Below the pieces are notes generated by a model that was given only the letters and a program-made list of their open reading frames with translations, searched no databases and was not told the origin of the DNA. Below, piece after piece: positions 837 through 1,913 of a stretch of 42,835 nucleotides of DNA. The position numbers were made by a program, and so were the translations under genes. This stretch comes from Bacteroidales bacterium (GTDB lineage Bacteria; Bacteroidota; Bacteroidia; Bacteroidales; JAOZQN01): NCBI GenBank assembly GCA_029932195.1, contig JAOZQN010000004.1, positions 1-42,835 on the forward strand. Reading direction: 5' to 3'. The stretch's first letter is position 1, and each line of letters begins with the position of its first letter.

Positions 837-1913
837 ATGAAACAACCAATATCATTAGTATTATCAGGAGGTGCTGCGAGAGGAATTGCACACATTGGAG
901 TTATTGAAGAGCTTGAAAAACAGGGTTTTGAAATAAAATCTATTGCAGGAAATTCAATGGGAGCATTTATTGGAGCAATGTATGCAATGGGAAACTTGGA
1001 GGAATATAAAGAATGGATTGTAAAATTAGATAAAATAGATGTTTTTAAACTCCTTGATTTTACTCTAAGTTCGCAAGGCTTAATAAAAGGAGACCGTATT
1101 TTTAATAAAATGAAAACATTTTTTCCCGACAAAAATATTGAAGATTTAGAAATTCCTTATGTCGCAGTTGCAACTGATATTACAAATATGAAAGAAATAA
1201 TTTTTGACAGCGGAAGCATATACGATGCCGTAAGAGCTTCTGTTTCAATACCTACAATTTTTACTCCTGTCAAAAAAAATGATATAATATTGGTTGATGG
1301 AGGGGTTGTTAATCAGTTACCATTAAATCGTGTTAAACGAACTGAAAACGATATTTTAATTGCCTCTTACGTAAATGCTGATATTTCTTATGAAAAACCA
1401 AAACAGTCAAAAAAAGAAGAAATAGTAAAAAAGACTATTTACGAACAAAAAGTTTCTGATTTTAGAAATAAATTTAACGAAATTTTGCCGAAAAAAGATA
1501 AGGATAAGGATAACGATAAATTAAATTACATCTCATTATTAACAAAATCAACAAGTATGCTCACTCACCAACTATCATTAATGAGTATTGAAAAATATAA
1601 ACCAGATATTTTGATTAATACTTCACGACATTCAGCCGGAACATTTGACTTTTTTAAAGCCGAAGAACTAATTGAAGCAGGTAGAATATCTGCAAAAAAA
1701 ACTATTGAACAATATGATAAAACATTACTTCAAAAAGATGGCTACCCACGTAAGGTTGGACAGCTTAACTATCAAGGCAACACGTTTCCAAGTCCCATTT
1801 TTATTGCCTTTGGCAATAAAAACAGCACGTTGGAAAGAGTTGAATATTTAAAATTTGTCCAACTTTACGTGGGTAGCCAAAAAGATAAAAGTATTTTATT
1901 TAGCAACAATTAA
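837..1913 (+). CDS. Patatin-like phospholipase family protein; C-terminus altered by in-frame palindromic element
   Basis: Oxyanion motif GGAARGIAHIGV, nucleophile elbow GNSMG, DGG motif 'VDGGVVNQLP'. Confidence 0.85.
   Translation: MKQPISLVLSGGAARGIAHIGVIEELEKQGFEIKSIAGNSMGAFIGAMYAMGNLEEYKEWIVKLDKIDVFKLLDFTLSSQGLIKGDRIFNKMKTFFPDKNIEDLEIPYVAVATDITNMKEIIFDSGSIYDAVRASVSIPTIFTPVKKNDIILVDGGVVNQLPLNRVKRTENDILIASYVNADISYEKPKQSKKEEIVKKTIYEQKVSDFRNKFNEILPKKDKDKDNDKLNYISLLTKSTSMLTHQLSLMSIEKYKPDILINTSRHSAGTFDFFKAEELIEAGRISAKKTIEQYDKTLLQKDGYPRKVGQLNYQGNTFPSPIFIAFGNKNSTLERVEYLKFVQLYVGSQKDKSILFSNN
1740..1878. mobile_element. 139-bp MITE-like palindromic element inserted in frame in the patatin CDS
   Basis: Terminal inverted repeats GGCTACCCACGTAAGGTTGGACA / TGTCCAACTTTACGTGGGTAGCC (22/23), inner hairpin TTTTTATTGCC-TTT-GGCAATAAAAA, flanking exact 8-bp direct repeat AAAAAGAT (1732-1739 and 1879-1886). 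Confidence 0.9.

Follow-up and report, generated by a model that had tools for sequence, protein, structure and literature searches.

An in-frame palindromic MITE in a patatin gene of a Bacteroidales bacterium and its probable mobilisation by an insertion sequence encoding a DUF6399 protein

How a palindromic element came to lie in frame within a protein-coding gene, and which transposase moved it there, are the questions raised by a patatin-like phospholipase gene (PF01734; positions 837-1913, plus strand) in a stretch of 42,835 nucleotides of the Bacteroidales bacterium contig JAOZQN010000004.1, hereafter the window. The open reading frame (ORF) comprises 358 codons, of which 49 derive from an insertion, and its product matches the Pfam Patatin model over residues 7-163 (E = 1.1e-30). 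The inserted element, a 139-bp MITE (positions 1740-1878), enters the ORF after codon 301, near the 3' end.

The MITE is bounded by 23-bp terminal inverted repeats (TIRs), GGCTACCCACGTAAGGTTGGACA on the left (1740-1762, plus strand) and GGCTACCCACGTAAAGTTGGACA, as read on the minus strand, on the right (1856-1878), which pair at 22 of 23 positions, or are complementary at 23 of 24 if counted from position 1739. Exact copies of the 8-bp target site duplication AAAAAGAT flank the element on the left (1732-1739) and on the right (1879-1886), while an imperfect inner hairpin (1778-1842), with arms at 1778-1808 and 1812-1842 that are 74 % complementary, occupies its centre. The folding energy of the MITE strand is -64.9 kcal/mol (z = -10.9), and none of 200 shuffles was equally stable. 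All coordinates of the element, its TIRs (22/23) and its exact 8-bp repeats that were given in the preliminary description are borne out, and the presence of a palindromic MITE within the patatin gene is confirmed.

Together, the 139-bp MITE and one copy of the 8-bp duplication contribute 147 nt, or 49 codons (1740-1886, plus strand; GYPRKVGQLNYQGNTFPSPIFIAFGNKNSTLERVEYLKFVQLYVGS followed by QKD), through which the ORF continues uninterrupted, as had been proposed from the sequence of this locus. Among the six frames of the MITE, the +0 frame alone is stop-free. The original C-terminal codons (KSILFSNN and the stop codon), recognised from the ORF and from a nucleotide alignment to the related genome G017, are displaced by the insertion to positions 1887-1913 (plus strand). 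Because 147 bp is divisible by three and the stop-free frame is in register, a 49-residue tail outside the catalytic domain is predicted, in agreement with the element-derived tail previously described for the patatin product. The Patatin domain match lies entirely upstream of the insert and the enzyme core is thus intact. To judge from these features, the insertion is probably near-neutral and tolerated, rather than selected.

The empty site expected from the earlier proposal is found in the closest patatin orthologue (G017:C429), a protein of 308 amino acids which shares 77 % identity over residues 1-301 and ends without the 49-codon insert. Less closely related orthologues, such as L155 (54 %), terminate at the same place. 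The nucleotide alignment to G017 breaks at window position 1722 and restarts at 1922, where the following gene begins, and both flanks of the insert therefore belong together.

Further copies, which the preliminary description had suggested should exist in the same genome, are indeed present. The genome from which the window derives (G000; 6.73 Mb in 944 contigs) contains fourteen exact full copies of the 139-bp MITE, that of the patatin gene among them, as well as a near-exact one (L015), and all fifteen have perfect flanking repeats of their own, 8 or 9 bp long. This copy number shows that positions 1740-1878 do not represent a chance palindrome, while the identity of the copies indicates that their amplification was recent. 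Furthermore, the 14-nt terminal motif has 262 matches in this genome (at most one mismatch), as against none for the reversed control pattern, and elements with these ends fall into length classes of about 90, 114, 136-141, 169 and 205 bp. When 59 TIR-bounded elements of any length from this and related genomes were examined, exact duplications of 8 bp (45/59) and 9 bp (2/59) were observed, none had a duplication of 5, 6, 7 or 10 bp, and twelve lacked a duplication. The orthologue without the insert, the multiple copies with their own duplications and the 262 terminal matches together point to a recently active MITE, the mobility of which we infer from identical copies with differing duplications. 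Features expected of a MITE that are found here comprise TIRs, a duplication of constant length, short multicopy elements without a transposase gene, a matching insertion sequence (IS) end and an empty site. A search of plasmids with the MITE sequence returned no match. Elsewhere in the genome (L016:1501-1862; G000:C764), a 141-bp copy that has diverged and has a duplication of its own adjoins a decayed second element with similar ends, and this pair suggests older rounds of activity.

A scan of the GTDB collection with the 22-nt end located it in Bacteroidales, Saprospiraceae, Desulfobacterales and Thioploca MAGs. The same ends bound an element of 1.6-2.2 kb encoding a protein with a helix-turn-helix (HTH) region and conserved D, D and E residues, the C-terminus of which corresponds to the Pfam family DUF6399. 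For example, a 1642-bp element in a Desulfobacterales MAG (L132) has the same ends as the MITE on both sides, and its only large ORFs encode the HTH protein and, as the second part, a match to DUF6399 (6e-37). G053:C286 contains an element of 2235 bp that has the same ends and carries a DUF6399 gene. In the window's own genome (G000:C57), a DUF6399 C-terminus that is 83 % identical to that of L132 stops about 20 nt short of the identical end, an arrangement also found in G037:C357. The left TIR of the patatin MITE matches the ends of the DUF6399-encoding element at 22 of 23 positions, and the outer 28 nt on the right of the MITE show full identity (28/28) to the element's 3' end in G000:C57, this being the only end of the IS assembled in the genome. 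A 39-nt stretch of the IS end occurs there in fifteen identical copies, nearly always right at a contig terminus, as is expected for a collapsed multicopy IS. An autonomous IS with the same TIRs, as had been sought, is probably represented by these ends, and the ISL3 type that had been envisaged for it is not supported. Derivation of the MITE from the IS by simple internal deletion was rejected, as no similarity extends beyond the outer 23-28 bp of the IS sequence compared.

The proteins encoded between the ends match PF19936 (DUF6399) with E values of 9e-37 to 3e-66, and intact representatives comprise 522-558 amino acids with an N-terminal HTH-like region. Three motifs are invariant in four divergent proteins (relative to the first, identities of the other three are 39, 38 and 22 %), namely DET (D144), SD (D198) and SSxxEGRNG (E449). 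An invariant D, D, E set accompanied by a DNA-binding N-terminus, the HTH matches of which are weak and mostly below the Pfam cut-offs, is consistent with a DDE transposase. DUF6399 genes lie within GGC-type inverted ends in members of the Bacteroidota, Desulfobacterota, Cyanobacteriota and Gammaproteobacteria. These include genes on a plasmid of the cyanobacterium Crinalium (20/20 TIR GGCTACCAATCTAAGGCGGG, with an 8-bp duplication) and on a Thiodictyon plasmid (GGCCTTGATCAT ends, 17/20 TIR, with a duplication), a gene in two frames within GGCTAC-type ends (18/20) in a Saprospiraceae MAG, where the 3' end recurs in four contigs, and an intact gene inside GGCTAC-type ends (17/20) in the Desulfobacterales MAG. 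In Acaryochloris, the homology of two copies begins at a GGCT(A/C)CC-type end. The family appears to be rare and patchy, as DUF6399 was found only in the window's own genome among 396 genomes sampled from its phylum, and in two of 396 sampled from the phylum of the Desulfobacterales MAG. No NCBIfam transposase model exceeded its cut-off for any DUF6399 protein, PHROGs and phage records yielded no match or relative, a four-sequence profile retrieved no transposase from the PDB sequences (hmmsearch), and DUF6399 is mentioned by no paper in the literature searched. Considering that related GGCTAC ends surround such proteins in other phyla as well, DUF6399 probably serves as the transposase of an IS group that lacks a family model in the libraries searched, its catalysis and fold being predicted.

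Several of these elements have additional features. At a run of eight A residues (ATTAAAAAAAACTC or ATAAAAAAAACTTT), the DUF6399 gene is divided between two frames in L132 (1248-1300) and L194 (1510-1570, minus strand; a -1 shift), which come from different phyla, while the gene of L147 has no A run and is read through in a single frame; programmed frameshifting is possible. A second small ORF in the opposite orientation is located between the ends of two larger elements (L194:2235-2666 and, in Crinalium, L190:1101-1550), one with an IS630-like HTH and the other of no known family, and these are possibly separate passengers. In a Thioploca MAG, a contig encoding a 453-amino acid transposase-like protein (L124:106-1467) with no Pfam match above threshold terminates in the same 22-nt repeat.

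On the basis of the shared TIRs, the 8-bp duplication, the empty site, the identical multicopy elements and the approximately fifteen IS ends in the genome, we consider it highly probable that the patatin insertion is a recently amplified MITE mobilised in trans by an autonomous IS, the transposase of which is the HTH and DDE-like DUF6399 protein. This protein would bind the 23-bp ends, cut them by means of its D-D-E active site and join the ends to a target with an 8-bp stagger; at the patatin locus, the resulting gain of 147 bp in register would give the gene its 49-residue tail, which is probably tolerated. Counted against this explanation are the absence of a complete autonomous copy from the assembly of the window's genome, the twelve TIR-bounded pairs without a duplication, the lack of an exact target duplication and the frameshifted transposase in both L132 and G053:C286, and the failure to find a DUF6399 match in G017, another genome with many of these ends.

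Other sources of mobility for elements with GGCTACCCACGTAARGTTGGACA ends were also considered. ISL3 elements generate 8-bp duplications and have GGC or GGCT-type ends and a D-D-E transposase, and an ISL3-type parent had been suggested for the patatin insertion on the strength of the 8-bp duplication and the GGCT ends. The genome does encode ISL3 transposases, one with an intact catalytic domain (C361) and one remnant (C640). However, PF01610 (ISL3) was not found in the related genomes G001, G017 and G037, where the terminal motif has 106, 96 and 36 matches, respectively, the C361 gene is followed by a GGCTCACTTG end that differs from GGCTACCCACG (read by eye), and the ends occur around DUF6399 genes instead. 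With no ISL3 transposase between matching ends in its own genome and these three relatives, the suggestion is not upheld, and mobilisation by this family is very improbable. Alignment of the DUF6399 profile with the ISL3 protein of this genome gave a probability of 0.1 %, and with the L124 protein no similarity (hhalign), each being a weak test based on single sequences. Candidate genes of a further family, IS1595 (PF12762), are present in G000, G001 and G037. DUF6399 could alternatively be a passenger or accessory gene of elements moved by another, unassembled transposase. The autonomous copies in the window's genome are themselves unassembled, the G053:C286 element has a second HTH ORF between its ends (143 amino acids, with an IS630-like N-terminus below the family cut-off) and that of Crinalium likewise holds a 149-amino acid ORF of no known family. 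These second ORFs nevertheless differ in family from element to element and are missing from L132, where 1642 bp leave no space for another gene, while the HTH-like region, the invariant D, D and E, and the occurrence inside GGC-type inverted ends in four groups pertain to the DUF6399 proteins themselves. A passenger role is thus regarded as unlikely. Beside the ISL3 gene of C361 (L060), a copy of the DUF6399 IS starts at position 2213 within a 295-amino acid ORF, to which it adds GYPRKVGQI and then a stop codon, and the autonomous IS is thus likewise predicted to create C-terminal tails.

The in-frame insertion also raises the possibility of a domesticated cassette, selected to enter coding sequences and diversify proteins, as has been proposed for the Rickettsia palindromic elements (RPEs). 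Three of the fifteen copies are in frame: that of the patatin gene, one between the Eco57I and TaqI_C domains of a 648-amino acid Eco57I-type DNA methyltransferase, and, as read by eye, one close to the beginning of an ORF for a putative lipoprotein. Against this, at least one stop-free frame occurs by chance in 34 % of dinucleotide shuffles of the MITE, and no fewer than three sister copies interrupt ORFs out of frame, including one that splits an AAA ATPase gene (L003:419-2320; G000:C895), the halves of which lie on both sides with AAA_21/AAA_15 matches in the second, while most of the remaining copies are intergenic. Frequent in-frame insertion is not observed across the family as a whole: a frame shift results from insertions of the 138-, 114-, 137- and 140-bp classes, and nearly all classes other than that of 139 bp either cause one or contain stops in every frame. 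Leaving aside a 136-bp and a 145-bp pair, both without a duplication, only the 139-bp class combines a preserved frame with a fully open one. The identical copies are also recent, which leaves little time for selection. A selected cassette was rejected on the chance rate of open frames and the broken sister genes, and we give it little credence; the in-frame insertion looks biologically ordinary, a product of neutral survivorship rather than of adaptation. The parallel with RPEs drawn in the preliminary description thus holds as regards mechanism, and does not extend to a special fit to coding sequence. Least probable of all is an artefactual joining of two unrelated flanks through the repeat. 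The assembly is fragmented and broken at such repeats, but the same 8-bp duplication is present on both flanks, which align to a single contiguous region of G017 containing the patatin gene followed by the beginning of its neighbour.

The MITE in the patatin gene belongs to a known kind of event, in-frame MITE insertion, with a probable parent IS group whose transposase is unrecognised in the libraries searched. A family of unknown function, DUF6399, thereby gains a testable role, with the 23-bp ends as the putative substrate and the 8-bp duplication as the product signature, both read from sequence. Without this family, annotation pipelines would overlook these insertion sequences and assign element-derived peptides (such as GYPRKVGQ...YVGS) to the host proteins. 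The patatin tail, the methyltransferase interdomain segment and the putative lipoprotein N-terminus furthermore form a natural series of in-frame insertions, in which one can ask how proteins tolerate sudden 49-residue additions. More broadly, and with more reserve than for the mobilisation of the MITE, we favour the view that an undescribed IS family with GGCTAC...GGACA ends and an 8-bp duplication has DUF6399 as its catalytic transposase. This IS family would occur in the Bacteroidota, Desulfobacterota, Cyanobacteriota and Gammaproteobacteria, possibly employ -1 frameshifting in some members, and drive MITE swarms (such as the 262 terminal-motif matches here), the members of which occasionally become protein segments. 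Undescribed is used here in the sense of unnamed in Pfam, NCBIfam and the literature searched.

Comparison with known systems places these elements as follows. ISL3 and the DUF6399 elements have the 8-bp duplication, GGCT-type ends and a D-D-E transposase, predicted for the latter, in common, yet three genomes with these ends have no ISL3 gene. PF19936 is listed in Pfam as a family of unknown function; in the present elements, it makes up the C-terminal part of a transposase-like protein encoded between TIRs, a part that contains the last of the conserved acidic residues. With other bacterial MITEs, the 139-bp element shares its short, palindromic, TIR-bounded and multicopy nature, the target duplication, the absence of a transposase and the existence of several length classes per set of ends. 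It differs from them in that neither Pfam nor NCBIfam identifies the family of its proposed source transposase as such and in that its likeness to the source is restricted to the outer 23-28 bp. In-frame fusions caused by intragenic MITEs are considered 'not unusual', with RPEs as the extreme case, in a 2024 review (PMC10969869). As described there via Ogata 2000 and 2002, RPEs resemble the patatin MITE in being palindromic elements of about 150 bp which lie in frame in unrelated genes; unlike the RPEs of that description, the elements reported here have mostly frame-incompatible length classes, several of their copies break genes, and a source transposase, the DUF6399 protein, is proposed for them.
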